DNA from: Candidatus Zhuqueibacterota bacterium
GTDB taxonomy: Bacteria; Zhuqueibacterota; Zhuqueibacteria; Oceanimicrobiales; Oceanimicrobiaceae
Direction: 5' to 3'
Length of the DNA stretch: 57,671 bases
Assembly (NCBI GenBank): GCA_029262005.1
Contig: JAJDAG010000137.1
Location: 1 to 57,671 of the forward strand
Positions 12,640-28,873 of this stretch are shown piece after piece. Both the position numbers and the translations under genes were made by a program. The stretch's first letter is position 1; every line of letters starts with the position of its first letter. Under the pieces are notes generated by a model. The model searched no databases. It saw only the letters and a list, made by a program, of their open reading frames with translations, and had not been told where the DNA came from.

Positions 12640-13719
12640 ATGCCAATTCGCCTGGTCGATGCCGGTTCCGTACCGTACCTTCGCTCGCAAACCGTTTATC
12701 ACGGAGTTGCCTGGGCGCGGACGAATGGGACGCCTGATACGATTATTCTAGCATGTCCCATGGAGCCTTACGTTTGTATTGGCCTGCATCAGGAAGTTGA
12801 TAAAGAAGTTGACTTAAACTACTGTGCCCAAAATGATATTCCTGTCGTTCGGCGTGAAGTGGGCGGCGGCGCTGTTTATCTCGATCGTAATCAAATTTTT
12901 ACCCAATGGATTTTTCATCCGCAAAGATTGCCGCTGCGCGTTGAAAAACGATTCGAGTTTTTTGCCGATCCTTTGGTGGCCACTTACAAAGCTCTGGGCA
13001 TTCAGGCTTGTTTTCGGCCAATCAATGACATTCAGGTCAACGGTAAAAAGATAGGCGGCACAGGCGCCGGGGCGATTGGCAACTCCGAGGTGTTGGTCGG
13101 TAACTTTTTGTTTGATTTTGATTTTACTGAAATGGCCAAGGTTCTAAAGGTGCCAAATGAGCAGTTTCGGGGAAAAGTTCACCAGAGTTTGCAGCAATAC
13201 ATGACCACTATGAAACGTGAACTGGGCGCCGCGCCAAGTCATGGGATGGTAAAAGAGCTTTACGTGCAGGCGTGTGAACGGGTTTTGGGTGACGAACTGG
13301 TTGTTGGGAAATTCACCGATGTTGAGTTGCGGGCAATGGAAGCATTTGATGCGAAGTTTACCTCCGCAGATTGGTTACATCAAAAAGGCGGGTTGCAGCG
13401 CGCCGGCGTAAAAATTCATAATGACGTTTGGGTTTACGACGCTACCCGCCAGGCAAAGGGTGGTTCGATTCAAATGACCATTCGCAAGCGTAATAATCAA
13501 ATTGACGATATTTCTATTTTCCCGGATTTTAAGCTTCAACCTGAGCACAGTGTGCAAGCGCTTGAAAATGCACTATTAGGCGTTGAGTTGAGCTCCGACA
13601 ATGTGCGGCGAACCATTGAGGATGTTTATCGACAATTGGATATTCAGTCTCCCGGCGTGCAACTCAACGATTGGGTTCAGGCGATTTTGTCTATAAATGC
13701 CACCCAGGCGCAAGGCTGA
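12640..13719 (+). CDS. Lipoate-protein ligase of the sHdr-associated type, first copy
   Basis: A 359-residue ligase of the LplA superfamily, with the family motif RREVGGGAVYLDRNQ and the lysine-containing loop NGKKIGGTGAGAIG, which should bind lipoyl-AMP. A C-terminal accessory domain of ~100 residues follows in the same chain, as in the sLpl(AB) ligases that serve LbpA in sulfur oxidisers. It would activate lipoate (or octanoate) with ATP and attach it to LbpA. AAGGGG at 12625-12630 precedes the ATG. A second ligase lies at 21535-22689 next to the second lbpA. Which carrier each ligase serves cannot be read from sequence. Confidence 0.92.
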   Translation: MPIRLVDAGSVPYLRSQTVYHGVAWARTNGTPDTIILACPMEPYVCIGLHQEVDKEVDLNYCAQNDIPVVRREVGGGAVYLDRNQIFTQWIFHPQRLPLRVEKRFEFFADPLVATYKALGIQACFRPINDIQVNGKKIGGTGAGAIGNSEVLVGNFLFDFDFTEMAKVLKVPNEQFRGKVHQSLQQYMTTMKRELGAAPSHGMVKELYVQACERVLGDELVVGKFTDVELRAMEAFDAKFTSADWLHQKGGLQRAGVKIHNDVWVYDATRQAKGGSIQMTIRKRNNQIDDISIFPDFKLQPEHSVQALENALLGVELSSDNVRRTIEDVYRQLDIQSPGVQLNDWVQAILSINATQAQG

Positions 13720-14481: not shown

Positions 14482-14952
14482 ATGTCAGAGCGCGAAGAGA
14501 TAAGAGGGTGTGTGGTTCTAACCAATTTGCATTATGCAGTGGATGATCACACCTGGGCCATGATCAATGATGACGGTACCGTTACAGTGGGAATGACGGA
14601 TGTCGCGCAAAATTTAGCCGGCGCTGTACTGCATGCTAAAATAAAAAAGGTTGGCGCTGTTCGGGCTAAAGGGAAGCCGGTGGCCACTGTTGAAAGCAGC
14701 AAATGGGTCGGTCCGGTTAAAACACCTGTTTCGGGCGAAATCATTGAAAGAAACGAAGCGGTTGCGGCTGAAGCTCAAATTCTCAATAGAAGTCCTTATA
14801 AGAAAGGCTGGCTGGTCAAGCTGCAACCGTCAAATCTGCAGGCCGAAATTGCCGAGCTAAAAACGGGTGATGCAGCAGTGGCGGCTTATCGTGTTAAAAT
14901 TGAGAAAGACGGCCTCAAGGCATGCGAACATCTTGACGGGTTCGAGGATTAG
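14482..14952 (+). CDS. lbpA: Lipoate-binding protein LbpA, first copy (GcvH-like)
   Basis: A 156-residue GcvH-like carrier. The lipoyl lysine is Lys74 in VESSKWVGP, within a beta-hairpin flanked by TPVSGEIIERNEAV as in glycine-cleavage H proteins. In sHdr systems LbpA carries lipoate that presumably holds the sulfur substrate during oxidation. An AAGGAGAAAGGG ribosome site precedes ATG 14482. The gene leads directly into shdrC1. A second lbpA occurs at 20128-20577, sharing EAEKYVGP-like residues but otherwise divergent. No gcvT or gcvP is present, which favours the sulfur role over glycine cleavage. Confidence 0.93.
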   Translation: MSEREEIRGCVVLTNLHYAVDDHTWAMINDDGTVTVGMTDVAQNLAGAVLHAKIKKVGAVRAKGKPVATVESSKWVGPVKTPVSGEIIERNEAVAAEAQILNRSPYKKGWLVKLQPSNLQAEIAELKTGDAAVAAYRVKIEKDGLKACEHLDGFED

Positions 14953-14976: not shown

Positions 14977-15711
14977 ATGGCTTCAAACGTAACAAGCAGG
15001 CCGAGCACTGCTTTGGACCTGACCGGCAGTAAGTACCGAGATATCCCGTTCGAGGAGAAAGAGCGTCTGTTCGCAGAAGTCAAGGCCGATATGCGATTCG
15101 AGGACGTTCTGTATGGGTGCTACGAGTGTGGAATTTGCACGGCAGCCTGCCCGTCTGCTCGATTTTATCATTTTAGCCCCAGAATTATTGCTCAGGCCGT
15201 GGCCCGTGAAGATGAGGATTTGGTTTACACACTCATGAATGACAGCATTTGGGACTGCTCCCAATGTTTTTCCTGTGACCGCTGTCCACGCCATAATTCT
15301 CCAGGTGGTTTGATCACAGTCATGCGCGAGGTGGCGGTGCGAAATGGGCTGCAAACCGCCCGGGATGCACTTGAAGGCTACGGCCGCATCATTTATAAGG
15401 TGATGTCAACCGGCACTCAGGTTTCTCCTGACATGCTGCAAGCGGATGCTTTCCCTGATTGGGGCAAGCATGTAACCGAGATTGCAGAGAACCTGGATAT
15501 ATGGCGCCGGGCACTGCCGCCGGAAACTTTGCACACAACCGAAACCGGTTGGGAAATTGATGACAAAACCATTATCGAGCTGTATCTGATCTGGCACATG
15601 ACCGGTGTCATGGATATGATAAAGGACATTGACGAAGGCTTGTTTATGATCTTGCAGGATGTTATGGAAGAACGATTGGAAGAGGCGGGTTACGACGAGA
15701 CGTTTGATTAA
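14977..15711 (+). CDS. shdrC1: sHdrC1, iron-sulfur subunit of the sHdr complex
   Basis: A 244-residue HdrC-like protein with two [4Fe-4S] motifs: Cys48, 51, 54 and 58 (CYECGICTAACP, CX2CX2CX3C) and Cys94, 97, 100 and 103 (CSQCFSCDRCP, CX2CX2CX2C). The second is one residue shorter than usual. The remaining C-terminal half is helical and rich in acidic residues. It should wire electrons between the HdrB-like and HdrA-like subunits in the cytoplasm. Order C1-B1-A-hyp is the signature of sHdr operons in sulfur-oxidising prokaryotes. The start ATG 14977 has GGCGGAG upstream. Confidence 0.93.
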   Translation: MASNVTSRPSTALDLTGSKYRDIPFEEKERLFAEVKADMRFEDVLYGCYECGICTAACPSARFYHFSPRIIAQAVAREDEDLVYTLMNDSIWDCSQCFSCDRCPRHNSPGGLITVMREVAVRNGLQTARDALEGYGRIIYKVMSTGTQVSPDMLQADAFPDWGKHVTEIAENLDIWRRALPPETLHTTETGWEIDDKTIIELYLIWHMTGVMDMIKDIDEGLFMILQDVMEERLEEAGYDETFD

Positions 15712-15782
15712 ACCAGACCAACGAAGTAACGCCTGCATCCAAATTGAGATGATATTAGATTTAGAAAAATGAGGTGGAAATT

Positions 15783-16985
15783 ATGGGCGCAAACATTCCT
15801 ATTCACGAAGTCATAAAACCTGCAAAAGAGCGCGGTTTTAAGTGGGATCCGAATGAGGCACCAACTGAGGATTACCACGATGCTCTTGAGCAACTGGAAA
15901 AGGAGGGAGAACTGGAAATTCTCAGGGTGCCGGAGCCATATATAGAGGTTGAAAACAAATACGGCCGTATCAAAAAAATTCCGCTTGAACGCACATGGCA
16001 CCACAAGAGCTGTGGCCAGTGTGGTCACATTCCAGGGTATTCCACATCTATTTTTTGGCTAAACCGCCAACTTGGCCTAGACTATCTTGATCCCAAGGAT
16101 CAAACCTCCTGCACAGCCTGGAATTACTATGCTTCGGCAACATCAAATCCTGCTGCGCAAGCCGCAGTTGCCGTACGCAACTTCGCTGCTGCGGGCGAAA
16201 CCGGATATTTTCCGCTCATTCATTGCGGCACCAGTTTTGGCCATTACAAAGAAACGCGACATGAAATTATTCATCATCATGACCTGCGGCGGCAGGTTAA
16301 GAAAATTATGGAACGCCTTGGCAAGAAACTTGTGATGCCTGAAGAAATTGTGCATTACAGCGAATGGGTGCACGTTATCCGTGATAAAGTGGCTGAACGT
16401 CAAACCATTGACATGAGTCAAATCAAAGCAGCGGTGCATCCGGCCTGTCACTATCATAAACTTATCGCTGAGGATGCCATTTATGATGAGGAAATCTATG
16501 GCGCACAGCGCTCTGCTATCATTACCGGCACTTTGCTGAAGCTGGGCATAGACGTGGGTGACTATTCCACCTGGTACGATTGCTGCGGTTTTGGCTTTCG
16601 CCACATTCTGGTTTCGCGGGACTTTTCACGCTCTTTTTCAACCATGCGAAAAATTGAAATCATGAAAAAAGAGGTGAATCCGGATGTTGTGGTTACGCAC
16701 GATACCGGTTGTGTGACAACCTTGGACCAGAGTCAATTTGCGGCAAAGGCGCACGACCGAGATGTTGGTGTGCCTGTCATGTCTGATTCACAAATTGCCG
16801 CTTTGGCAATGGGCGCACATCCCTACAAAGTTTTACAACTACATTGGCACAACACAGATAACAAAGCATTCCTCCGTAAACTGGGCATTGACGTTGAAGC
16901 AAAGTGGCAGGAATTTGAGGATGCTTGTGAAAAACTAAAATCTGGTGAACAACAATTCCTAACCTGGGAGGACGCAGATGCCTAG
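15783..16985 (+). CDS. shdrB1: sHdrB1, CCG-domain subunit of the sHdr complex
   Basis: A 400-residue HdrB-like protein. ATG 15783 is chosen over GTG 15774, which would place GAGGTGG (15771-15777) inside the gene instead of as the ribosome site. The C-terminal cysteine-rich CCG motif is recognisable from HPACHYHK, WYDCCGFGFRH and THDTGCVTTLD. An earlier cysteine set, KSCGQCGHIPG and QTSCTAWNYY, replaces the N-terminal CCG motif in an atypical form. In HdrB these motifs bind noncubane [4Fe-4S] clusters that handle disulfides; here the likely substrate is LbpA-bound sulfur. The 3' end overlaps shdrA by 8 bases. Confidence 0.92.
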   Translation: MGANIPIHEVIKPAKERGFKWDPNEAPTEDYHDALEQLEKEGELEILRVPEPYIEVENKYGRIKKIPLERTWHHKSCGQCGHIPGYSTSIFWLNRQLGLDYLDPKDQTSCTAWNYYASATSNPAAQAAVAVRNFAAAGETGYFPLIHCGTSFGHYKETRHEIIHHHDLRRQVKKIMERLGKKLVMPEEIVHYSEWVHVIRDKVAERQTIDMSQIKAAVHPACHYHKLIAEDAIYDEEIYGAQRSAIITGTLLKLGIDVGDYSTWYDCCGFGFRHILVSRDFSRSFSTMRKIEIMKKEVNPDVVVTHDTGCVTTLDQSQFAAKAHDRDVGVPVMSDSQIAALAMGAHPYKVLQLHWHNTDNKAFLRKLGIDVEAKWQEFEDACEKLKSGEQQFLTWEDADA

Positions 16986-18039
16986 TCAAGACATTCTTGT
17001 TATCGGTGGTGGCCCGGCTGGCCTGGAGGCGGCCCGCGGCATTGCTGATTTAGGCTATAAAGCCATACTTGTTGAAAAAAGAGATCGCCTGGGTGGCACC
17101 CCTGATGAGGCACAATATGCTGCATTGACGCCGGACCTTAGAAATGCTGAAGAGGCAATGGATGAGATGATTGCCGCAGTTGCAAACAATGAAAATGTTG
17201 AAATCCGGTTGGATTCGAGTGTTACTGGAACGAATGGAACACTTGGTGATTTCAATGTCATCGTAAAAAATGGTAAGGGCTCGGAGAAGCTCAATGTTGG
17301 TTCTGTGATTCTTGCAACCGGTTTTCAGCATTTTGATCCGGGCCGGGAAACGCAACAATACGGCTACTATCTTTATGATGATGTGGTCACGCTTGTGGAT
17401 GCTGAAAAAATGCTGAAAGCAGACACCTTTGTTAGACCGTCCAACGGTGAAGTGCCGAAACGCGTTTGTTTTATTCAGTGCGTGGGCTCGCGCGATCGTC
17501 AGATCGGCAACGAATACTGTTCAAAAGTCTGTTGCGGCATTGCTTCAAAACAAGCAATTGAAATAAGGCAGCAGGTGCCTGACTGTCGTGTTTTTATTTT
17601 TTACATTGACATGCGGATGTACGGATACTGGGAGAATGAGATTTATTGGCCAGCGCAGGAAAAACACAAGGTTAATTACATAAAAGGCATTGCCACCGAG
17701 GTTTTACAGAAAGGTGACAAACTGCTGGTGCGTGGTGAAGACACAACATTGGGACGCCCTATGGAAATTCCAATGGACATGGTAATCCTGTCTGTGGGCA
17801 TGGAGCCCAGTCGCGGCACCAAGGAATTGGCAGAGATTTTTGGCCTGGAAAAAAACAAATACGGTTTTATCGAAACAATCGGTGGCGCATTGGATACTGT
17901 GAGCACCAGCGTGCCTGGCGTTTTTGCTGCCGGCGCTTGCACAGGTCCTGCTGATCTGGAAGACAGTGTTGCCATGGCTGGTTCAGCAGTCATGAAATCT
18001 GTTATTACCGTGAGAAAGGCAAAGGGCTCAAAACAGTAA
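16978..18039 (+). CDS. shdrA: sHdrA, FAD-containing subunit of the sHdr complex
   Basis: A 353-residue HdrA-like flavoprotein, the short form typical of sHdr rather than the longer methanogen HdrA. The Rossmann motif VIGGGPAGLEAAR (8-20) binds FAD. The core motif CVGSRD followed by YCSKVCCGIA supplies cysteines for the HdrA-type [4Fe-4S] cluster. No extra ferredoxin domains are appended. It receives electrons from the B/C subunits during sulfur oxidation. It overlaps shdrB1 by 8 bases and is followed by the sHdr-specific hypothetical gene. Confidence 0.94.
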   Translation: MPSQDILVIGGGPAGLEAARGIADLGYKAILVEKRDRLGGTPDEAQYAALTPDLRNAEEAMDEMIAAVANNENVEIRLDSSVTGTNGTLGDFNVIVKNGKGSEKLNVGSVILATGFQHFDPGRETQQYGYYLYDDVVTLVDAEKMLKADTFVRPSNGEVPKRVCFIQCVGSRDRQIGNEYCSKVCCGIASKQAIEIRQQVPDCRVFIFYIDMRMYGYWENEIYWPAQEKHKVNYIKGIATEVLQKGDKLLVRGEDTTLGRPMEIPMDMVILSVGMEPSRGTKELAEIFGLEKNKYGFIETIGGALDTVSTSVPGVFAAGACTGPADLEDSVAMAGSAVMKSVITVRKAKGSKQ

Positions 18040-18089: not shown

Positions 18090-18833
18090 ATGAGTCAGGT
18101 TGTCGACACTGAAAGCGCCAAAGAATTTATGAAAGAAGCGTTTTCACAAATATCTCCGGAAGAGTTGAGCAATATTTGTGCGGCTTTGGAAAGCAAGAGC
18201 CGGCAGTTTCAGCAGTTTTTGAATGCCGAATCCCTGCCAAATCTTTCTGACCGTCAGTTGTATCAAATTCTGAGATCGATTTTTTCTACCCGCAGAAAGG
18301 CGCAAAAGCTGCTCGACACATTCTCAGCCGAAAACCTCAAAGTCTGGATTGATGACTTGCTTTATGCAACAGACGAAATCGGAATTCGGTTTCAGAATTT
18401 CTGCGAGCATTTTGATAATCTGGATATGAATATTCGCACTGATTTAGCGGGTGAACTTTTGCATTTCACTTTTCCGGAAAAGTACTGGCTCTGGTCGCGC
18501 TGGATGTGGGATCCGAAAGTGAAAACCGGGGCTTTACCGCTGGTAATCAGCGAGGATTATGTTTTGAATTGTTCCTCGCCTGGAGAGGGATACTTAGTGG
18601 TTGGCGAGGCTGTTGCCTTTGTTCACAGCGTTGGCGAGGCTGCTGGTTTTCAAACGATTAGCCGCACGCTTTTCGGCACGGATGTCTATTTGAGCTGCGT
18701 GTATGTCGTGTATGTTTACACCGTATTGCGAATGAGAATGACGCAGGAGTTTAATAAAGTGATGCCCGGGTTGGCGGAGTTTTCGTGCAGATTGTTGGGC
18801 GTTCATAGATTGGAGGAAATTCATGCCGGTTGA
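18090..18833 (+). CDS. sHdr-operon conserved hypothetical protein (Hyp)
   Basis: A 247-residue protein with no signal peptide, lying exactly where sHdr operons carry a conserved gene of unknown function between shdrA and the C2/B2 genes. The N-terminal half is helical (EELSNICAALESKSRQFQQF). A WLWSRWMWDP motif near residue 135 and a hydrophobic segment (YLSCVYVVYVYTVL) near residue 205 are notable. Hydrophobicity is not enough for a clear membrane helix. It overlaps the next gene by 11 bases. Role is unknown; an assembly or structural function in the sHdr complex is a guess from its constant linkage. Confidence 0.85.
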   Translation: MSQVVDTESAKEFMKEAFSQISPEELSNICAALESKSRQFQQFLNAESLPNLSDRQLYQILRSIFSTRRKAQKLLDTFSAENLKVWIDDLLYATDEIGIRFQNFCEHFDNLDMNIRTDLAGELLHFTFPEKYWLWSRWMWDPKVKTGALPLVISEDYVLNCSSPGEGYLVVGEAVAFVHSVGEAAGFQTISRTLFGTDVYLSCVYVVYVYTVLRMRMTQEFNKVMPGLAEFSCRLLGVHRLEEIHAG

Positions 18834-20085
18834 CAAACATCAAATCATTGAAAAAGAAAAGGCCGTGGTTGAGGGCATTGAGCTGAGCAGTGACTGGAAC
18901 CGCATGTTCGAGCAGCGTGTAATTTGGGACTATGATCTTACATACATGGACAAAATTACGGAGCTTGACGGTGGCGAGTCGCTCGGTTGGTGTTATCAAT
19001 GTGCCCAGTGTGTGCCTGTCTGTCCTGTCGATATGGTCGGCTCTTACGGCCCGCGCAAAATATATCGTGCGGTCCAGGTCGGAGCAGATTTGTTTAACGA
19101 TGACTACTTGTGGCAATGTACCACTTGCGCAAACTGCCTGCGTGTTTGCCCGAAAGAAGTGGATATGATCAAAATCATGCCTGCTGTCAGAGAGCAAGCT
19201 GTGCTGGATGGTAATGTCCCCGGCGAATTGCAGGAAGCTTTTGAAAACACCTTTGAATATGGAAACCCAATGGGTGAATCCCCTCGCAAACGCGCGGACT
19301 GGGTAAAAGATGCTGGCGTGGAAGTGCCCGTTTTGTCACAAATTAAAAAGCCCGTGGACCTGCTTTGGCTTGTTGAATGCTACCCGGCTTATCATCCACG
19401 GGGTAAAGAGGCGAGTCAGGCGTTAGCACGAATTCTGACGGCATTAAAAGCCGACTACGGCATTCTTGGCACCGAAGAAAAGTGCACCTGTGACACACAA
19501 AGACTCGCGGGTGAAATTGGCTTGTTTGAGGAGTTTGCAGAGGAAAATATCCGTCTGTTGAAAAAATACAAACATAACCAAATTATGGTCACCGACCCGC
19601 ATGCACTCAACGCGCTCCGGAATGAGTATCCAAGTTTTGGCGGCAAGTTTGATGTCATCCACTACACGACTTATCTAGCGCCACTGATGAGCCGGCTTAA
19701 CTTGAAGAATTCACTGGACATTAAGGTGACATTCCATGACCCGTGCTACCTTGGAAGGCACAATGGAGAGTTTGAAGCGCCACGGGCAATGCTCAAGGCC
19801 ATTCCCGGCGTTGAACTTATTGAAATGGGCCGATGCCGTGAAAACAGTTACTGCTGTGGCGGCGGTGGCGGCGGCATGTGGCTGGATGGATTTATGGTGG
19901 ATCATGTGACCGAACGACTTTCTGAAAAACGGGTTCGAGAGGCGGTGGAGACCGGCGCCGATGTGCTTGCAGTCTGCTGTCCATACGAGGTTTCTCGGTT
20001 TGAAGATGCCGTCAAATCTACCGGCAATGAAGGTAAGTTGCTGGTGAAAGATATCATCGAATTAGTGGATGAGGCCATGCGCTAG
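18823..20085 (+). CDS. shdrB3: Fused sHdrC2-sHdrB2 subunit (B3-type)
   Basis: A 420-residue protein joining an HdrC-like N-terminus and an HdrB-like C-terminus. Two standard [4Fe-4S] motifs occur at Cys57-67 (CYQCAQCVPVCP) and Cys99-109 (CTTCANCLRVCP). The C-terminal CCG motif is intact (HDPCYLGRHN ... GRCRENSYCCGGGGGG ... VCCPYE). The expected first CCG set is degraded: the family's CPHC appears here as DPHA. The fusion replaces separate shdrC2 and shdrB2 genes and resembles the subunit called B3 in the sHdr type that is linked to Etf genes. It starts 11 bases inside hyp, with TGGAGGAAA as ribosome site. The B3 name is from memory. Confidence 0.9.
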   Translation: MPVDKHQIIEKEKAVVEGIELSSDWNRMFEQRVIWDYDLTYMDKITELDGGESLGWCYQCAQCVPVCPVDMVGSYGPRKIYRAVQVGADLFNDDYLWQCTTCANCLRVCPKEVDMIKIMPAVREQAVLDGNVPGELQEAFENTFEYGNPMGESPRKRADWVKDAGVEVPVLSQIKKPVDLLWLVECYPAYHPRGKEASQALARILTALKADYGILGTEEKCTCDTQRLAGEIGLFEEFAEENIRLLKKYKHNQIMVTDPHALNALRNEYPSFGGKFDVIHYTTYLAPLMSRLNLKNSLDIKVTFHDPCYLGRHNGEFEAPRAMLKAIPGVELIEMGRCRENSYCCGGGGGGMWLDGFMVDHVTERLSEKRVREAVETGADVLAVCCPYEVSRFEDAVKSTGNEGKLLVKDIIELVDEAMR

Positions 20086-20127
20086 CGTGTTCTTGACCGA
20101 AATGATGAATGCAACCATTTGAGGAAA

Positions 20128-20577
20128 ATGCTGAAAATCAGAGAGTATGAAATAAATCCAGAGTTGTCTTACGACCCGGAAGAACATTTTTGGCTGGATG
20201 TAAAAAATGGCCGGGCCCGTGTCGGCTACGACGCACTTGTGCAGGAATCGATGGGCGCTTTTGTTGTGGTCCAGTTACGAGATGACCTGAGTGTGGTGAA
20301 ACGCGGTGAGGCGTTCGGCACAATCGAAGCGGAAAAATACGTTGGGCCGCTGCGTTCACCTGTTTCAGGAAAAATTATCGCTTTGAATGAACAGGTCATT
20401 GCAAACCCGCGCCTGGCCAACACGGAACCGTTTGGCAATGGCTGGTTTGTGGAAATTAAGTTGTCTGATTTTGCCCGGGAAAGCGCCTCTCTGGTGACGG
20501 GAGAGGCGGCTGTTCGAGAGTGGTTTGAGCGTGAATTAGAAAAATATGAGGATAAAGGTTGGTTAGCGGAAATATAA
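20128..20577 (+). CDS. lbpA: Lipoate-binding protein LbpA, second copy
   Basis: A 149-residue GcvH-like carrier with lipoyl lysine Lys70 in TIEAEKYVGPLRSPVSG. ATG 20128 is preferred over TTG 20119 because GAGG at 20121-20124 is then a ribosome site. It is clearly related to, but not a recent duplicate of, the copy at 14482; the two share the hairpin and GWFVEIKL/GWLVKL-like strand but differ in most loops. It overlaps the next gene by 19 bases and is followed by the lipoyl-synthase and ligase genes, so it is probably their main substrate. Confidence 0.93.
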   Translation: MLKIREYEINPELSYDPEEHFWLDVKNGRARVGYDALVQESMGAFVVVQLRDDLSVVKRGEAFGTIEAEKYVGPLRSPVSGKIIALNEQVIANPRLANTEPFGNGWFVEIKLSDFARESASLVTGEAAVREWFERELEKYEDKGWLAEI

Positions 20578-21518
20578 CAAAACTCGATCTCACGGATCAG
20601 GCGTTTGCAGTGCGAAGGGCCAATTTTACCGATGAAATCAGTTTTTATGCCCCCGGGCTTAAACGCTATTGCACCACTGAATTCGAGCAGAAAAGTCCGC
20701 GCGCTTTCCTGCCGATCAGTCTGACCGGAAATGCCTGCGTCCTGCAGTGCGACCATTGTGAATCAAAAATTCTCGAGCCCATGTTTGCAATCGATCAGAG
20801 GGAAGGGCTGTTTCCGCTGTGTGAACGTCTGGCCAACTCCGGCACCGAGGGCATTTTGCTTAGCGGGGGTTCGAATCGAGTGGGCGCGGTTCCTTTGCAC
20901 AAACATTTTGCCGACATGAAGCGCGTGAAACAAGAACTCGGATTGCGGGTTATGGTGCATTGTGGCCTGGTCTCTGAAGAGACTTGCGCGGCGCTAAAAG
21001 AGGCTGAAGTCGACGCGGTTATGCTCGACATTATTGGCGCAAACGAAACCATTCGCGATGTTTACCACCTGGACGCTACCATTGAAGATTTTGACCGTTC
21101 GCTGGAACTGCTGCAAAAATATGAGCACAGCGTACGACCACACATAATTCTCGGGTTGCACTACGGCAAAATGTTGGGAGAGGACAAAGCGCTTGAGATG
21201 ATTGCGAAGTACCCGGTTCATGCTTTAGTTCTGGTAGTTCTGACGCCCATGGCCGGCACCAATATGCAAAATGTGGCGCCACCGGATGTAGCTGAGTTGG
21301 CCGCCTTTTTTCAAAAATCAAGATTAAGAATGCCGGATACGCCCATCATGGTTGGTTGCGCCCGGCCTTTGGGCGAACACAGAGCACAGCTTGACCGCCT
21401 GGCAGTAGATTGTGGTTTAAACGGCATCGCTTATCCTGCTGAAGGCGTGGTTGAATACGCGCGCGCCAAAGGCCTTCGCCCCGGCTTTATTGAAAATTCC
21501 TGTTCCTGTGGATGCTGA
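20559..21518 (+). CDS. LipS-type radical SAM lipoyl synthase component
   Basis: A 319-residue radical SAM enzyme. The [4Fe-4S]/SAM triad is Cys60, Cys64 and Cys67 (CVLQCDHC), and the chain ends with a Cys-rich tail (SCSCGC) that could hold a second cluster. Linked to lbpA, a lipoate ligase and another radical SAM gene, it fits one half of the LipS1/LipS2 pair that inserts sulfur into octanoyl-LbpA in sulfur oxidisers and some archaea. Which of the two it is I cannot decide. TTG 20559 is favoured by GAGGA at 20548-20552; a GTG at 20610 is an alternative. Confidence 0.82.
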   Translation: MVSGNITKLDLTDQAFAVRRANFTDEISFYAPGLKRYCTTEFEQKSPRAFLPISLTGNACVLQCDHCESKILEPMFAIDQREGLFPLCERLANSGTEGILLSGGSNRVGAVPLHKHFADMKRVKQELGLRVMVHCGLVSEETCAALKEAEVDAVMLDIIGANETIRDVYHLDATIEDFDRSLELLQKYEHSVRPHIILGLHYGKMLGEDKALEMIAKYPVHALVLVVLTPMAGTNMQNVAPPDVAELAAFFQKSRLRMPDTPIMVGCARPLGEHRAQLDRLAVDCGLNGIAYPAEGVVEYARAKGLRPGFIENSCSCGC

Positions 21519-21534
21519 AAAAATTACTTCCTCA

Positions 21535-22689
21535 ATGCTCAAATGCCAAATGCCTAAAGACTGGCGATATCTGGAAGATGCCGGTGTGTCCGCTCAATTT
21601 GGTTTGGCTGCAGATGAATATTTAATGCATTATTATGCGCATGGTTCTGAATTGCGTCCACCTGTGTTGCGGCTTTACACCTACCGTTCTCATTGTGCTC
21701 TGGTCGGCCGGTTTCAAAATATCGAGGCTGAACTTGATCTGGAAGCCTGCCGCGAGCTTGGGGTGCAATTCTGCCGCCGGCCAACAGGTGGCGGCGCCAT
21801 TTTGATGGGGGCAGAGCAACTCGGTCTCTGTTTTGTCGCGCCGGCGGATTTTGATGCTCAGGCAATTAAGCCAATAGAAGTTTACCGCAAATTGGCCGCG
21901 CCTGTTCTGCAAGCATTGTCTGAGCTCGGAATTGCGACGCGTTTCAGACCCAGAAATGACCTGGAGGCAGGCGGAAGAAAAATTGCCGGTTTAGGCATTT
22001 ACTACGATGCGAACGGGGCCATGCTTTTTCACACGAGCTTGCTGGTTGGGCTTGATATTTCCATGATGCTGAAAGTGCTGAAAGTTCCGGTTGAAAAGAT
22101 TGCGGACAAAGTTCACACACAATCGGTGGCGGATAGAATCACAACAATTTCAAGCGAATTAAATCGAACCGTGACCGTGACGGAAGTGCAAAAGTTGGTT
22201 AAAGAACATTACGCCACCACTTTCGGCGCGAGGTTTGTTTCTGAACCATGGACTGTTGCTGAGACCGCGGCCATTGAGAAACTGGCTGAAGAAAAGTATA
22301 CAAGCGAATCCTGGATTTTTCAACGCACCCCGCAACCGGACATGATTGGCACGAGCATTATCAAAACAAAAGCCGGTTTGTTGCGAACTTACATCAGCCT
22401 CAAGGGGCAAGTTATAAAAAGCGTGCTGGTTACGGGTGATTTTTTTGACCACAGCAACGTGCTGCATCAGTTGGAGGCAAGACTGAAATGGGGGGCATTT
22501 GACCGAACGAAAATTCAGCAGGCTGTAAGAAAAACAATGTCCGCAGAGCAACAGTGCCAGTTGGCCATCCCGGAAGCGGATCTGGTGGAAGCAATTTGCA
22601 AAGCCGGTATGAACGCACGAGCAAAAAATCGGTTGACGAACAAAGGCTCTTGTTACTACCCATTGTCGAAGACGCCTGCTGATATTTGA
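21535..22689 (+). CDS. Lipoate-protein ligase of the sHdr-associated type, second copy
   Basis: A 384-residue LplA-superfamily ligase with the motifs RRPTGGGAILMG and the lysine loop GGRKIAGLGIYY. A C-terminal domain (~300-384) corresponds to the accessory LplB-like part. ATG 21535 follows the previous stop by 16 bases. GTG 21508 (overlapping that stop) or ATG 21550 are possible and no ribosome site decides. It sits between the two LipS-type genes and after lbpA copy two, so octanoyl/lipoyl transfer to that LbpA is likely. It differs widely from the ligase at 12640, suggesting the two serve different carriers or different acyl groups. Confidence 0.9.
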   Translation: MLKCQMPKDWRYLEDAGVSAQFGLAADEYLMHYYAHGSELRPPVLRLYTYRSHCALVGRFQNIEAELDLEACRELGVQFCRRPTGGGAILMGAEQLGLCFVAPADFDAQAIKPIEVYRKLAAPVLQALSELGIATRFRPRNDLEAGGRKIAGLGIYYDANGAMLFHTSLLVGLDISMMLKVLKVPVEKIADKVHTQSVADRITTISSELNRTVTVTEVQKLVKEHYATTFGARFVSEPWTVAETAAIEKLAEEKYTSESWIFQRTPQPDMIGTSIIKTKAGLLRTYISLKGQVIKSVLVTGDFFDHSNVLHQLEARLKWGAFDRTKIQQAVRKTMSAEQQCQLAIPEADLVEAICKAGMNARAKNRLTNKGSCYYPLSKTPADI

Positions 22690-22728: not shown

Positions 22729-23838
22729 ATGAGCATCATTGCTGACACACCTTTACCGGTGCTAACAAACAAAGAGCCGCAAACCCACGACTCGGCCAAA
22801 GTGAGTCCGGATTATGTACGGCTAAGCCAGGCCAGCGCCATGGCTTTGCGTTTTTCTTCAGGCCGCTTTTCGCGTGACTTTGAGTTTGGTGGCATTAATT
22901 TGCTTTTGAATTATGCAGAAGGATGTTTCTCAGATTGTGGCTATTGCGGCCTGGCACGAACACGCCCGGGTAATTATGCAGACAAGTCTTTCATTCGCGT
23001 CGAGTGGCCGCTGCTTGAAACCGATGCTGTTGTCAAGCGAATGGTAAAATATGAGGACAAGCTCACGCGGCTTTGTATCTCAATGGTAACGCATGGCCGG
23101 GCCTTCGAAGATACTGTCGACATTACCGAACGCATCGTCCGAAAAGTGCGAACGCCCTTGTCGCTGCTGGTTGCGCCCCCTGTACTTGGGCATGAAAAAC
23201 TCCTGGTGTTTAAAAAACTTGGCGTGGATATAATCGGCATCGGACTCGATGCAGTCAGTGAGAGTGTTTTTGCTGCGACTCGCACAAATGTGCCAAACGG
23301 TGGATTGCGCTGGGACAACTACATGGATATTGTAAACGCCTCGCGCGAAATTTTCGGGCCGTGGAAAGTAAATTGTCATGTGGTCGTCGGCCTGGGTGAA
23401 AGCGATGCGGAAATGGTAGATGTGCTTTACGATTTGAAGGCGCGGCAAATTCTCTCTTTTCTTTTCAGCTTTAATCCGGAGCCGGATTCACGCATGGGCG
23501 ATCATCCCAAATCCAGCATCAACCGCTGGCGTCGGATTCAGCTTGTGAAATATTTGATTGAGGAACATGATCTGCCGCGGCATAAAATAACCTTTGACGA
23601 TTCGGGTGCCATGACGAAGCTGAAAGCGCTGCCGGGTCAGGTCGCGGCAATTGTCGATCAGGGAACAGCTTTTATGACGCATGGGTGCACCAGCGCCAAT
23701 GGCGAGCCAGGTTGCACCCGGCCGTACGGCAGCTATCGTCCCAGCGAAGCTTATCGCGACTTTCCATTTCAACCCGATGCACTTGCTCTTGCCGGTATCA
23801 GAATGGAATTAAATCTTGAGGAGTTTCTGGCAGGTTGA
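22729..23838 (+). CDS. LipS-type radical SAM lipoyl synthase component
   Basis: A 369-residue radical SAM protein with the cluster triad Cys66, Cys70 and Cys73 (CFSDCGYC), in a context (NYAEGCFSDCGYCGLA) like that of biotin-synthase-related enzymes. The barrel region includes GGLRWDNY and HVVVGLGESD, and a C-terminal HGCTSANGEPGCTRPYGS segment could bind a second cluster. It is the partner candidate for the radical SAM gene at 20559; the pair would build lipoate on LbpA without a classical LipA. AGGAAAG precedes the ATG. Its stop overlaps the next start (TTGA). Confidence 0.82.
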   Translation: MSIIADTPLPVLTNKEPQTHDSAKVSPDYVRLSQASAMALRFSSGRFSRDFEFGGINLLLNYAEGCFSDCGYCGLARTRPGNYADKSFIRVEWPLLETDAVVKRMVKYEDKLTRLCISMVTHGRAFEDTVDITERIVRKVRTPLSLLVAPPVLGHEKLLVFKKLGVDIIGIGLDAVSESVFAATRTNVPNGGLRWDNYMDIVNASREIFGPWKVNCHVVVGLGESDAEMVDVLYDLKARQILSFLFSFNPEPDSRMGDHPKSSINRWRRIQLVKYLIEEHDLPRHKITFDDSGAMTKLKALPGQVAAIVDQGTAFMTHGCTSANGEPGCTRPYGSYRPSEAYRDFPFQPDALALAGIRMELNLEEFLAG

Positions 23839-24950
23839 TTTCCTCAAAATTAAAAGATTATTTACAGGATCCTTTTCTTCGAAGCTTGTACACCGATGTG
23901 CGCAAGGCAGGGTCACTGCGTTCAATCTCTCTGGATCTCACGCATAACTGTAACCTGCGCTGCAGCGGCTGTTATTATTTTGCAGAGGAAATGGACCGCT
24001 TCGAGTCCCCGGAAGACGATGCGATTTTCGATGAATTTATACAAAAGGAAAAAGAGCGTGGCACCAATTTTGTCACGATTGTCGGTGGTGAGCCGAGTCT
24101 GGAGCTTGGACGACTCAAAAAAATCTATGACAATTTCGCTATGAATGTCGCCACCAACGGTCTTGTCAAAATCCCGCGACACGGATTTGAAAAAATGCCA
24201 ATTGGCGTTGCCGTCTGGGGAGATCACGAAACAGACAAACAGCTTCGCGGTGGCGGCAAACATGATATTTTCTCAAAGGCATTGCAAAATTATCGCGGGG
24301 ATGACCGGGCATTTTTTTATTACACCGTCATACCCGGCAAAGCTCATGAAATTGCCGGCGTGGTTGAGCAGTGCGTTGATAACGGCAACCCTGTTCTGTT
24401 TAATTTCTACGGCGCTGTTTCCGGTTCCGGCGATTCTCTGTATTTTGGTGATGGCTTTGCGGCTGCCCGTCGGGAAATCGATCGCATGATCGAGCGCTAC
24501 CCCGACCGAATTCTGATGACATCGTATTTCAGCAGGGTGGCTTCAACCGGCCGTTTATTCGATGAAAAATGGGGTTACGACGTCTGCACCAGCATTACAT
24601 CGGATCATGCAATGAACCGGGTGCGCATTCAAAACGGCAAACCGTTTAATCCGCATTTTCGTGCTTACAATGCGGATTTTGTGACGACTCGCCGCTGTTG
24701 CACCGGCATGGAACGGGACTGCGCCACTTGCTTTGACGTGTGGGAGCACTTTTCATGGGTGATGTTAAATTTGAAAAAGCATCTCGTATCCAGGCAGGCA
24801 TTCACAAACTGGTTGACCACGATGTATCTGTTTTATCTTCTTAACCGAATTGTTGATTATGAGACCGGCTTGCAGCGGTTGCCGCAGATTCATGCCAGAG
24901 TAGGGTTACTGGCTGAACACCTTGTGTGTCCGGCAAGCGTGGCCGCCTGA
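23835..24950 (+). CDS. Additional radical SAM protein, function unknown
   Basis: A 371-residue radical SAM enzyme with triad Cys39, Cys43 and Cys46 (HNCNLRCSGCYYF) and the SAM-binding GGEPSL motif. Near the C-terminus, Cys251, Cys288, Cys289, Cys296 and Cys299 (RRCCTG, RDCATC) could bind an auxiliary [4Fe-4S] cluster, as in SPASM-like enzymes. A helical tail with a hydrophobic YLFYLLNRIV stretch ends the protein. The TTG start overlaps the previous stop, so translation is coupled. It stands between the lipoate-assembly genes and etfB but is distinct from both LipS-type genes. Its substrate is unknown; modification of a sHdr-related cofactor or protein is a reasonable guess only. Confidence 0.85.
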   Translation: MISSKLKDYLQDPFLRSLYTDVRKAGSLRSISLDLTHNCNLRCSGCYYFAEEMDRFESPEDDAIFDEFIQKEKERGTNFVTIVGGEPSLELGRLKKIYDNFAMNVATNGLVKIPRHGFEKMPIGVAVWGDHETDKQLRGGGKHDIFSKALQNYRGDDRAFFYYTVIPGKAHEIAGVVEQCVDNGNPVLFNFYGAVSGSGDSLYFGDGFAAARREIDRMIERYPDRILMTSYFSRVASTGRLFDEKWGYDVCTSITSDHAMNRVRIQNGKPFNPHFRAYNADFVTTRRCCTGMERDCATCFDVWEHFSWVMLNLKKHLVSRQAFTNWLTTMYLFYLLNRIVDYETGLQRLPQIHARVGLLAEHLVCPASVAA

Positions 24951-24995: not shown

Positions 24996-25763
24996 ATGAA
25001 TATTATTGTGCCCATTAAACAGGTACCAGACCTGGTGGAAGAACTGGAGTTGGATGACTCTGGTAAAGCGCTGAACCGGGAGTGGCTAAAATACAAAATC
25101 AATGAATTTGATGATCATGCACTTGAAGAGGCGTTGCAACTTAAAGACGCGCTTGGCGGCACGGTAACCGCCATGGCCCTTGGCACAGATGACATCGACA
25201 AGTCCCTGTTCACTTGTGCTGCAAAAGGCGCTGATAAACTGATCAAAGTAACCGGAGACTTTGATGCTGCTGTTGCGAGTCACGTGGCGGCAAAAGCAAT
25301 GGCCAATGTTATTCAGGGTCTGGAATATGATCTCATCCTCACCGGCGTGCAGGCGGCTGATGACCGCGATGGCCAGATTGGTGTTCTGCTCGCGCACTAT
25401 CTTGGGGTGCCGCACGTCAGCGTTGTAACCGGCGTTAATATTGATGCGGGAAAAGCGTTGGTGAATAAAGAGTATTCAGGCGGCCTTATGGGGGAATTTG
25501 AGGTTGATTTACCCGCTGTTTTCGGCGTGCAGGCTGCGCGGGAAACACCTCGATACGCACCGGTTAGCCGCGTGCGCCAGGCCATGCGCAACACTGAGTT
25601 GGAGGAAATCGCGGCCGGCGATTGTGCTGTTGCGGTCGGTTCCAGCGTGTCCCGTATGTTTAAACCGGAAACCGGCGCCGGCGCAGAAATGCTGTCCGGG
25701 TCAGGGGAGGAAGTTGCCGCCAGGATAATGAACATCATTCGCGAGAAAGGAATAAAAGTATGA
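24996..25763 (+). CDS. etfB: Electron transfer flavoprotein beta subunit
   Basis: A 255-residue EtfB, beginning MNIIVPIKQVPD as is typical, with the AMP/FAD-binding loop region GVQAADDRDGQIG (residues ~115-127). A strong TGGAGG ribosome site precedes ATG 24996. The stop overlaps the etfA start (ATGA). Placement downstream of the sHdr and lipoate genes suggests that EtfAB accepts electrons from the sHdr complex rather than from acyl-CoA dehydrogenases, none of which is nearby. It would then deliver them to the membrane oxidoreductase encoded just downstream. Confidence 0.94.
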   Translation: MNIIVPIKQVPDLVEELELDDSGKALNREWLKYKINEFDDHALEEALQLKDALGGTVTAMALGTDDIDKSLFTCAAKGADKLIKVTGDFDAAVASHVAAKAMANVIQGLEYDLILTGVQAADDRDGQIGVLLAHYLGVPHVSVVTGVNIDAGKALVNKEYSGGLMGEFEVDLPAVFGVQAARETPRYAPVSRVRQAMRNTELEEIAAGDCAVAVGSSVSRMFKPETGAGAEMLSGSGEEVAARIMNIIREKGIKV

Positions 25764-26722
25764 GTAACGATATTTTTGTGGTTGCTGAGCATATTAAAGG
25801 CGCGCTCGAAGAAGTCACGTTTGAGATGTTAGGTAAGGGAAAAGACCTGGCAGGGAATTTTGATGGCAATTTGGTAGCTGTTCTTTTGGGCAGCGGCGCC
25901 AGGGAGCTGGCCGGTGAGTTGGGCGCCGCTGATAAAGTGATTTGTGTGGAACACGCTGAGGTGGCCGATTTTAACCCGGAAACCCACGGGCAGGCTTTGG
26001 CTGAAGTTGTAAAAAGCAATTCTCCAAAGGTCGTGCTGGTGGCCAACACATCGATGGGCATGGATTTGGCTGCCGGCGTTTCTATAGAAGCCGGTTTGCC
26101 CCTTGTTGCTTATGTGACGGAAATGAGCGCCGACAATGGCAGGCTTACAGTTACCAGTCAGCTCTATGGCGGAAAAATGAATGTCGAATCTCAGTTTGAA
26201 GGCGAGCAGTGTGTGGTCTCGGTAATGACGGGCTCGTTTTCAGCGGATGCCGGCAGGGCAGAGGGCACGCCGGCAATTGAAGATGTGACTCCGTCTCTTG
26301 GAGATCCGCGTGTGCGTTTCAAACGGCTTATCGAGCCGGAGGCCGGCGATGTGGATATTACTCAGCAGGAGATTCTTGTCAGTGTTGGGCGCGGCATTCA
26401 GAATGAGGACAATATACCAATGGTGCAGGAATTGGCCGAAGCCCTTGGTGGCGCTCTGTCATCATCGCGCCCCATCGTCGATAATAAGTGGTTGCCCAAG
26501 ACCCGACAAGTTGGTAAGTCCGGTGTGAAAGTCAAGCCTAAACTCTATTTGATGGTGGGCATCAGTGGCGCACCTGAGCACATAGAAGGCATGAAAGACG
26601 CAGAATGTATTATTGCCATAAACACAGATGAGAATGCCCCCATTTTTGATCACGCGCATTACGGTTCAACAGCGGACTTATTTGATGTTGTGCCGGCCTT
26701 GGTTGAAAAGTTGAAGGGGTAG
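25760..26722 (+). CDS. etfA: Electron transfer flavoprotein alpha subunit
   Basis: A 320-residue EtfA. The N-terminal domain pairs with EtfB, and the C-terminal FAD domain (~200-320) shows the family signature SSRPIVDNKWLP, GKSGVKVKPKLY, GISGAPEHIEGM and AINTDENAPIFDHAHYG. The gene overlaps etfB by four bases and is followed after 51 bases by the membrane oxidoreductase. Length and motifs are normal, so a standard FAD-binding, electron-carrying heterodimer is expected. There is no fused ferredoxin domain, hence no sign of the bifurcating FixAB type by that criterion. Confidence 0.95.
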   Translation: MSNDIFVVAEHIKGALEEVTFEMLGKGKDLAGNFDGNLVAVLLGSGARELAGELGAADKVICVEHAEVADFNPETHGQALAEVVKSNSPKVVLVANTSMGMDLAAGVSIEAGLPLVAYVTEMSADNGRLTVTSQLYGGKMNVESQFEGEQCVVSVMTGSFSADAGRAEGTPAIEDVTPSLGDPRVRFKRLIEPEAGDVDITQQEILVSVGRGIQNEDNIPMVQELAEALGGALSSSRPIVDNKWLPKTRQVGKSGVKVKPKLYLMVGISGAPEHIEGMKDAECIIAINTDENAPIFDHAHYGSTADLFDVVPALVEKLKG

Positions 26723-26773: not shown

Positions 26774-28873
26774 ATGCCGGAAGCAGTACCTACCAGAGAG
26801 ATTTTTCGAAATTTTTCATTTGTAATGCAGATGCTGTTCTATGTCGTCAGCTTCAGTGCGATTGCTGTCTTCCTTTACGGTTCTTACCTGCGTGTTAAAA
26901 AATACCGCAGGGGACATTCTGCCTATCGTTTTGACAACCTTGGCAAGCGAATTATCAAGGCCAAAATCATTGTGCTAAAGAACGCTTCTGTCTGGAAAAG
27001 AGATGCGTTGGCCGGCTTTGCGCACACCCTGGTTTTTTGGGGCTTTGCCGTGCTCTTTGTCGGCACCGTAATTGTTGCACTCGACCACGACCTTTTGCGA
27101 TTTTTTGATGTTCATCTTTTGCAAGGCGAGTTCTACCTGTGGTTTTCGCTTGTTCTCGATGTCTTTGGCGTTTTATTTTTAATTGGTCTTGTGTTGATGA
27201 TGCTGCGTCGCAGCGGCACGGGACAGCCACAATTAGATTATACCAGAGTTGACTTAAAAGAAGACCAGTACGATCGTTCCGGTTACAAACGTGACGATCG
27301 GATCTTTCTCTGGCTACTGCTGCTAATTGGGCTATCCGGGTTCTTTATCGAGGGATTTCGCATTGCTGTGGATCGCCCTGAGTTTGAGGCTTGGGCTTCG
27401 CCTGTTGGCTGGTTTCTGGCTAACCTGTTCGATTCCCTTGGAATGTCTGACTCTGGAAATACTTTTCACGCAGGGACCTGGTGGCTTCATGGCATTTTTG
27501 TTTTGATTTTTGTAGCCTATATTCCGTTTTCAAAAGCCATGCATATGTTACTCGACTTTGCTAATCTTGTTTTTACCGATGAATTGGCGGCGCAGAGGTT
27601 GCCCAAAATCTCTGAAGAAGATATGAAAAAAGGTATGGGGTACGGCTCGATTGAGGACTTCACCTGGAAGGAGCTTCTGGATTTTGATTCCTGCACAAAA
27701 TGCGGACGCTGTCACATTGCTTGTCCGGCACGTGCCGCCGGCACAGTGCTTTCACCTCGGGATCTGATCCTTGATTTGCGAACTTATGCTGACTCAACCA
27801 TTGGTGTTTCCGAGTGGTTCAGGCAAAAGTTTGATGGTGGTTCGAGATGGCCGGACCCCGGTAAAAATGGGGTGAAAGTTGCAGGTCAGGTGATAAAAAA
27901 AGAAACGCTCTGGGCTTGCACAACCTGTATGTCCTGTGTTGAGTCCTGTCCGGTTGGCATTGAACATTTGACAAGTATTGTACAATTACGCCGCCGTCTT
28001 GTAGACGAAGGCAGTTTGGATGACAATCTGCAGGACGCCCTGATGAATATTGGTGATTACGGCAACTCATTTGGTCAGCCTGAACGCGCACGCGGGAAAT
28101 GGATTCAGGGCCTCGATTTCAAACCAAAGGATGTTCGGAAAGAGGCTGCTGATTATCTGTGGTTCATGGGCGATTACGCTGCTTATGACCCGCGCGTGCA
28201 AGCGCTGTCGCGAAGCGTTGCCCGGGTTCTGAATAAAATTGGTATCGATTTTGGTGTTTTATATGAGGGTGAGAAAAATGCCGGCAACGATGTGCGCCGC
28301 GTCGGTGAAGAGGGACTGTTTGAGATGTTGGTTGAGGACAATCTCGCGGTTCTGCACAAGGCAAAATTCAAGGAGATATTTACCACGGATCCGCACACAT
28401 TCAATACCATCAAGAATGAGTACCCTGAATTTGGCGGCAACTTTACTATCTATCATTACACACAACTTCTGGCCAATCTCATTGACGACGGCAAGTTAAC
28501 GTTTTCCAAAAAGCTGGACTATAAAGTCACTTATCATGACCCGTGCTATCTGGGCCGTTACAACAAAGAGACTAGCGCGCCGCGCAAGATACTTAAGGCA
28601 CTCGGTGTAACACTGCTCGAAATGCCGCGCTGCGGGGAAAATACTTTTTGCTGTGGCGCCGGCGGTGGCCGCATCTGGATGGATGACTCTGGCATGGAGG
28701 AACGGCCCAGTGAAATGCGCATTAAAGAAGCGCTGGGCCTTGGAACCTTCGACTATTTTGTCGTCGCCTGCCCGAAGGACAATGCCATGTACACAGATGC
28801 CATCAAGACTGCCGGGCAGGAAGGTAAGTTTGAAATACGCGATATGATTCAGTTGGTAGAAGAGGCGCTTTAA
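26774..28873 (+). CDS. Membrane Etf:(mena)quinone oxidoreductase, HdrCB-like (EMO/EtfD type)
   Basis: A 699-residue membrane protein. Five to six helices (about residues 18-38, 80-105, 118-145, 176-195, 236-265) form a NarI-like cytochrome b domain. The soluble part has [4Fe-4S] motifs at Cys307-317 (CTKCGRCHIACP) and Cys382-392 (CTTCMSCVESCP) and one CCG motif (HDPCYLGRYN ... CCGAGGG). The family's CPHC is changed to DPHT. Proteins of this build, encoded beside etfBA, pass electrons from Etf to menaquinone. GAGGAGGGAG precedes the ATG. It ends the locus and so provides the electron exit of the sHdr pathway. Confidence 0.93.
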   Translation: MPEAVPTREIFRNFSFVMQMLFYVVSFSAIAVFLYGSYLRVKKYRRGHSAYRFDNLGKRIIKAKIIVLKNASVWKRDALAGFAHTLVFWGFAVLFVGTVIVALDHDLLRFFDVHLLQGEFYLWFSLVLDVFGVLFLIGLVLMMLRRSGTGQPQLDYTRVDLKEDQYDRSGYKRDDRIFLWLLLLIGLSGFFIEGFRIAVDRPEFEAWASPVGWFLANLFDSLGMSDSGNTFHAGTWWLHGIFVLIFVAYIPFSKAMHMLLDFANLVFTDELAAQRLPKISEEDMKKGMGYGSIEDFTWKELLDFDSCTKCGRCHIACPARAAGTVLSPRDLILDLRTYADSTIGVSEWFRQKFDGGSRWPDPGKNGVKVAGQVIKKETLWACTTCMSCVESCPVGIEHLTSIVQLRRRLVDEGSLDDNLQDALMNIGDYGNSFGQPERARGKWIQGLDFKPKDVRKEAADYLWFMGDYAAYDPRVQALSRSVARVLNKIGIDFGVLYEGEKNAGNDVRRVGEEGLFEMLVEDNLAVLHKAKFKEIFTTDPHTFNTIKNEYPEFGGNFTIYHYTQLLANLIDDGKLTFSKKLDYKVTYHDPCYLGRYNKETSAPRKILKALGVTLLEMPRCGENTFCCGAGGGRIWMDDSGMEERPSEMRIKEALGLGTFDYFVVACPKDNAMYTDAIKTAGQEGKFEIRDMIQLVEEAL

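Follow-up and report, generated by a model that had tools for sequence, protein, structure and literature searches.

Many bacteria oxidize sulfur through the sHdr-LbpA pathway. In the current view, making its lipoate takes a ligase and two radical SAM proteins, and LipT is an optional source of electrons. LipT is an FAD oxidoreductase of the geranylgeranyl-reductase superfamily, encoded in lipS1-slpl(AB)-lipT-lipS2 clusters. PMC10332631 puts forward its role as electron supplier as a proposal, gives its occurrence as approximately 53% of LipS1/S2 bacteria, and describes bacterial LipS1-sLpl-LipT-LipS2 in E. coli as halting at a 157-Da mono-thiol stage. The type II sHdr system (PMC11582611) is defined by shdrC1B1A-H-B3 together with etfAB, with sHdrB3 as its mark. 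The published type II definitions that we retrieved make no mention of the gene described here, a radical SAM gene that we call rSAM3, and, supplements aside, we found no description of it in the accessible parts of the literature on sHdr, LipS1, and LipS2.

The rSAM3 gene and its type II sHdr locus

The stretch of DNA analyzed, hereafter the window, comprises 57,671 nucleotides. Its genes between 14977 and 20085 and between 24996 and 26722 form one cluster with the shdrC1B1A-H-B3 and etfAB content of a type II sHdr system. The genes of the locus, all on the forward strand, are as follows.

12640-13719, +, second lipoate:protein ligase-like gene (from its translation; in other KSB1 loci, homologues lie ahead of rSAM3)
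14482-14952, +, GcvH-like lipoate-binding protein LbpA, copy a (PF01597, E = 4e-34)
14977-15711, +, sHdrC1 (from its position and ferredoxin-like CxxCxxCxxxC motifs in the translation; conserved in related loci)
15774-16985, +, sHdrB1 (conserved in related loci)
16978-18039, +, sHdrA (HdrA2-type NCBIfam match, E = 4e-76, partial coverage)
18090-18833, +, hypothetical protein in the sHdrH position (without a match in Pfam or NCBIfam, but conserved in type II loci)
18823-20085, +, sHdrB3, a fused C2-B2 protein that marks type II sHdr (a single ORF with both HdrC- and HdrB-like NCBIfam matches)
20119-20577, +, GcvH-like lipoate-binding protein LbpA, copy b (PF01597, E = 1e-24)
20559-21518, +, LipS1-type lipoyl synthase, radical SAM (NF053742, 236 bits, above the cut-off of 230)
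21451-22689, +, lipoate:protein ligase, sLpl(AB)-like (PF21948, E = 1e-43, and PF10437; the listed start lies inside lipS1 and the true start is probably later)
22729-23838, +, LipS2-type lipoyl synthase, radical SAM (NF053743 is the best match over the full length, E = 6e-55, 187 bits, below the cut-off of 270)
23835-24950, +, rSAM3, unassigned radical SAM gene (371 aa; C39/C43/C46 as CxxxCxxC, and C251/C288/C289/C296/C299)
24996-25763, +, EtfB (from its translation; 46 bp after rSAM3; conserved)
25760-26722, +, EtfA (conserved in related loci)
26774-28873, +, membrane Hdr-like/EMO-type oxidoreductase (NCBIfam; conserved in related loci)

The initial annotation had described a TTG start overlapping the stop of a preceding LipS-type gene, and this holds: rSAM3 begins with TTG at 23835, a 4-nt overlap with the LipS2 reading frame that ends at 23838, and GAGGAG precedes the start codon by about 10 nt. 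A scan for promoters and terminators around rSAM3 gave nothing above chance level. Orthologues come from six phyla and show 54 to 72% identity, and the open reading frame is therefore no chance artifact; it is confirmed as a real gene. Both candidate lipoyl synthases had been said to be present already, and the two NCBIfam matches listed above agree with this, that of LipS2 lying below its cut-off. rSAM3 is thus a genuine third radical SAM gene beside an apparently complete set of LipS1, LipS2, and ligase.

Separately, LbpA genes and lipoate ligase-like genes each occur twice in the locus, and the two ligase-like genes (12640-13719 and 21451-22689) differ from each other. A homologue of the first one lies between lipS2 and rSAM3 in other KSB1 genomes.

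Protein family and predicted fold

rSAM3 contains ten cysteines, at positions 39, 43, 46, 180, 251, 288, 289, 296, 299, and 365. The standard triad and the five C-terminal cysteines noted in the initial annotation were recovered throughout, all eight being present in 43 of 43 aligned orthologues. Cysteine 180 is kept in 39 of the 43, and cysteine 365 is variable. L161 and L183, two orthologues that did not come from the motif scan described below, have the same five C-terminal cysteines.

Membership in the radical SAM superfamily follows from the invariant CxxxCxxC motif and from a partial TIM barrel in the AlphaFold2 model, which was built from 43 orthologues (pLDDT 89.3, pTM 0.89) and searched with Foldseek. 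All 47 Foldseek matches at E ≤ 0.001 are radical SAM enzymes. At the sequence level, PF13353 matches above its cut-off and PF04055 slightly under its curated gathering cut-off (E = 3e-6). Searches of Pfam, NCBIfam, PDB sequences, and PDB folds for a direct identification returned only generic radical SAM matches, with no close solved homologue, in keeping with the earlier description of the gene as unassigned. rSAM3 is no FAD-binding, geranylgeranyl-reductase-type oxidoreductase such as LipT. It shares with LipS1 and LipS2 (PMC9585515, PMC10332631) a place in the same operon and a second set of cysteines; however, its cysteine pattern differs from theirs, and neither NF053742 nor NF053743 matches it at E ≤ 0.001, while both neighbors are matched.

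The best solved folds are BlsE (7vob), SuiB (5v1s), and anSME (4k36), with TM scores of 0.40 to 0.48, which leaves the C-terminal third of rSAM3 without a close solved counterpart; there is also a weak sequence match to SkfB (6efn). These twitch/SPASM enzymes and rSAM3 have in common a partial TIM barrel and a cysteine-rich C-terminal extension, but the resemblance stops at a TM score of 0.48 and 12 to 16% identity. The SPASM pattern consists of seven cysteines, and the C251...CC-x6-C-x2-C arrangement of rSAM3 does not match it. No SPASM Pfam match was obtained at E ≤ 0.001, and SPASM-family NCBIfam models cover only the N-terminal half, far under their cut-offs, so neither the cysteine pattern nor a recognized model places rSAM3 among SPASM/twitch proteins. 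Judged from their invariance, the five C-terminal cysteines are compatible with a putative auxiliary [4Fe-4S] cluster.

Distribution across genomes

A scan of 84,980 genomes with the motif WEHFSW yielded at least 44 orthologous rSAM3 loci; the two orthologues mentioned above lack this motif. The hosts are Bacteroidota, KSB1, Acidobacteriota, Planctomycetota, Neomarinimicrobiota, and Gammaproteobacteria. Coupling to lipoate and sHdr genes, which had been claimed for the window, recurs in this survey: sHdr or lipoate genes lie on the same stretch as rSAM3 in 27 of the 44 public orthologue loci, and LipS1 was present in 15 of 17 genomes that had no such genes beside rSAM3 (19 of 23 rSAM3 genomes searched in all). 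Homologues could have proved to lie mostly outside sulfur loci; the orthologues instead occupy sHdr/lipoate loci or LipS1-positive genomes. Most rSAM3 loci are of type II. The arrangements observed were LipS2-rSAM3, ligase-rSAM3, EMO-rSAM3, and rSAM3-ArsR-DsrE-ligase, and in many Bacteroidota loci rSAM3 directly follows the EMO-type gene. The lipoate-assembly genes LipS2 and ligase are the commonest neighbors, EMO and DsrE genes being common too. In gammaproteobacteria, no lipoate gene adjoins rSAM3.

Within the class of the window, KSB1, 6 of 63 genomes encode LipS1 and all six have rSAM3, one as a contig-end fragment. The same was true of all six LipS1-positive genomes in an order-wide Bacteroidota sample and of all four sHdr-bearing Planctomycetota. 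Both by membership in sHdr-LbpA loci and by genome-wide co-occurrence with LipS1, then, rSAM3 is dedicated to sHdr/LipS1 genomes. Six Planctomycetota LipS1 loci without sHdr (L177-L182), whose LipS1 apparently serves general lipoate synthesis, had neither rSAM3 nor LipT within the approximately 10 kb of flanks fetched, which indicates an sHdr-linked role. A requirement for rSAM3 in every LipS1/S2 system is not supported, given its absence from the fetched flanks of these six loci and the lack of an orthologue in 20 of 20 LipS1-positive gammaproteobacteria outside the rSAM3 group.

More remote relatives are plasmid borne (L141, L142, L143, and L185) and are 30 to 34% identical to rSAM3, keeping the N-terminal triad and the C-terminal CC...C-x2-C. 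They form an uncharacterized, acyl-related radical SAM cassette and, unlike rSAM3, have no sHdr or lipoate genes in the flanks inspected. In Burkholderia (Burkholderia stagnalis), Alteromonas, and Tistrella (the last read by eye), they neighbor PaaA-like (di-iron) and hotdog (thioesterase or MaoC) genes, and a Methylomagnum relative neighbors ACP and NRPS genes. As a lead, these neighbors hint at acyl-thioester or carrier-bound substrates.

Alternation with LipT

In a 274-genome sample, 21 Gammaproteobacteria were LipS1 positive, and only one of these (G102) had an rSAM3 orthologue; most of the others carry LipT between the ligase and LipS2. LipT was searched genome-wide with a single query, matches at E < 1e-75 being counted as positive. 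It was found in 18 of 20 LipS1-positive gammaproteobacteria without rSAM3 versus none of 47 rSAM3-positive genomes (Fisher p = 2e-14, uncorrected for relatedness), and the best matches to the query in those 47 were other flavoproteins (E = 5e-32 or weaker, at most 33% identity). Within this sample, rSAM3 and LipT are mutually exclusive. In one genome with neither gene (G307), LipS1 sits at a contig edge. Another (G288) has a LipT-less locus with the layout of rSAM3 hosts, yet no rSAM3 was found in it. A second instance of the exclusion, outside Gammaproteobacteria, is the sole LipS1-positive Bacteroidota genome without rSAM3 (G498), which has LipT beside a LipS2-LipS1 fusion. A candidate rSAM3 in the LipT-bearing genome G277 (L121) was rejected as an orthologue; it is a remote paralogue on a long branch among the plasmid relatives.

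Two further observations concern these loci. The fusion in G498 is a 703-aa open reading frame (L160, 9677-11785, minus strand); next to it are LipT, a DsrE gene, and a ligase that carries additional sequence at its C terminus. LipT-less gammaproteobacterial sHdr loci (L120, 8410-9681, plus strand; L111, L131, and L132) carry a histone-deacetylase-family gene (PF00850, E = 6e-69) directly upstream of lipS1, possibly an LbpA deacylase or delipoylase.

The mutual exclusion is new: in one set of sHdr hosts, lipoate assembly comes with a radical SAM gene in the place of LipT. LipT and rSAM3 appear as accessory genes of the LipS1/S2 system in complementary sets of genomes, but they differ in family and in chemistry, and their functional equivalence is something we infer.

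Evolutionary history

In the LipS1 tree, the LipT carriers, seven rSAM3-positive gammaproteobacteria, and G288 make up one clade, with the rSAM3-positive members nested among the LipT carriers. Type II LipS1 forms a separate clade, and every sampled host of it has rSAM3. sHdrC1/B1 divides the hosts in the same way, and the branch that separates type II from the gammaproteobacteria is very long. The gammaproteobacterial rSAM3 proteins, in turn, form a single clade (SH-aLRT 87) beside those of Bacteroidota; they are 58 to 63% identical to the window protein, versus 35 to 41% for LipS1 and LipS2. Because rSAM3 groups with Bacteroidota where LipS1 and sHdrC1/B1 do not, it most likely entered the LipT-less gammaproteobacteria separately from LipS1 and sHdr. 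These quick trees show lateral transfer of rSAM3 between type II and type I hosts. A role as part of type II electron transfer through EtfAB and EMO was discarded because LipT-less, type I-like gammaproteobacteria also carry the gene. With about two independent origins of the association, one in the type II clade and one in a gammaproteobacterial clade, the exclusion of LipT could be lineage history.

Possible roles of rSAM3

We tentatively favor, at a strength somewhat short of probable, a reading in which rSAM3 is an accessory radical SAM enzyme dedicated to the sHdr-LbpA system, has taken over the slot of LipT by non-orthologous displacement, and acts on the LbpA-bound chain. The triad C39/C43/C46 would hold the SAM-binding [4Fe-4S] cluster, and four of the five residues C251, C288, C289, C296, and C299 would hold a second one. 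rSAM3 would work beside sLpl(AB), LipS2 (sulfur at C8), and LipS1 (sulfur at C6), with an octanoyl, mercaptooctanoyl, or lipoyl chain on LbpA as its substrate, and would finish or adjust the LbpA cofactor for sulfur oxidation. The sHdr-specific maturation of LbpA would then include an extra step or support function, provided by LipT in one set of genomes and by rSAM3 in the other. The displacement of LipT function, the acyl- or lipoyl-LbpA substrate, the auxiliary cluster, and the reaction are parts that we infer from these patterns; rSAM3 would have a putative role as a component required for sulfur oxidation or LbpA maturation. Since the role of LipT is itself a proposal (PMC10332631), a common slot does not reveal the reaction of rSAM3. 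Several points count against the LipT slot. A radical SAM enzyme is no simple substitute for an electron donor, G288 lacks both genes, the gammaproteobacterial rSAM3 is unlinked to lipoate genes, and the association has only about two origins. In PMC9585515, moreover, archaeal LipS2 followed by LipS1 completes lipoyl in vitro with a reductant alone.

An unlikely but sizable alternative is that rSAM3 modifies a protein, either an sHdr component (sHdrA, sHdrB, sHdrH, or the DsrE-type sulfur carrier) or the LbpA polypeptide, in the manner of a SPASM/twitch maturase, the alternation with LipT being a coincidence of lineage or an indirect effect of a different electron route in the modified enzyme. 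The nearest folds belong to twitch/SPASM-class enzymes of peptides or small molecules, and the weak SkfB match is in line with this, but the folds resemble each other only generically and at a low score (TM 0.48). Residues common to rSAM3-positive gammaproteobacteria and type II hosts, and absent from LipT-bearing gammaproteobacteria, are concentrated in DsrE2, HdrC1, and HdrB1 rather than in LipS1, which would suit a protein target; the comparison is exploratory and unrooted, and the scattered columns may be ancestral. Against it, the commonest neighbors are LipS2 and ligase, even if EMO and DsrE are common too, and no small open reading frame resembling a precursor peptide lies beside rSAM3 in the window.

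It is quite unlikely that the enzyme synthesizes or modifies a diffusible small molecule, such as an octanoate-like precursor, a quinone, or another electron carrier, for LipT-less sHdr systems. BlsE, the top fold match, has a small-molecule substrate, the remote relatives share operons of a natural-product-like kind with ACP, NRPS, thioesterase, and PaaA-like genes, and the gammaproteobacterial genes adjoin no lipoate gene; in other hosts, however, rSAM3 is fixed in the lipoate/sHdr operon, and in the window it overlaps lipS2 by 4 nt. We give a similarly low probability to a new kind of radical chemistry on the lipoyl (or octanoyl) group of LbpA, such that LipT-less sHdr would use a lipoate derivative not seen before. 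As the initial annotation proposed, rSAM3 may modify LbpA, sHdr, or a cofactor. The alternation with LipT and the transfer into LipT-less gammaproteobacteria point to a slot common with LipT rather than merely an extra modification.

Still less probable is a third partner of LipS1 and LipS2, for sulfur insertion or cluster repair, that would make insertion at C6 and C8 efficient in bacteria. The mono-thiol halt in E. coli (157 Da, PMC10332631) suggests that something may be missing in vivo, and rSAM3 has five conserved extra cysteines. That experiment, however, used LipT-type genes, from hosts without rSAM3; the archaeal pair performs both insertions with reductant alone (PMC9585515); and rSAM3 is missing from the vicinity of LipS1 in the Planctomycetota loci that lack sHdr. 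Finally, operons can harbor passenger genes and MAG sampling is uneven, but that rSAM3 is a passenger with no shared function is highly improbable, as no result here favors it, the gene accompanies LipS1 even in genomes where the two are unlinked (15 of 17), it is 54 to 72% identical across six phyla, and gammaproteobacteria acquired it separately from LipS1.

Biological significance

A third, highly conserved radical SAM gene in LipT-less sHdr hosts, with one unexplained exception in this sample, suggests a further slot in sHdr lipoate assembly that is filled by two unrelated proteins. rSAM3 may be the unrecognized replacement of LipT or the maker of a new lipoate modification, and it may account for some of the LipS1/S2 bacteria, about half of the total, that lack LipT. 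It is a genomic marker of LipT-independent sHdr in KSB1, Bacteroidota, Planctomycetota, and some Gammaproteobacteria, and it offers a concrete route to the real role of LipT.
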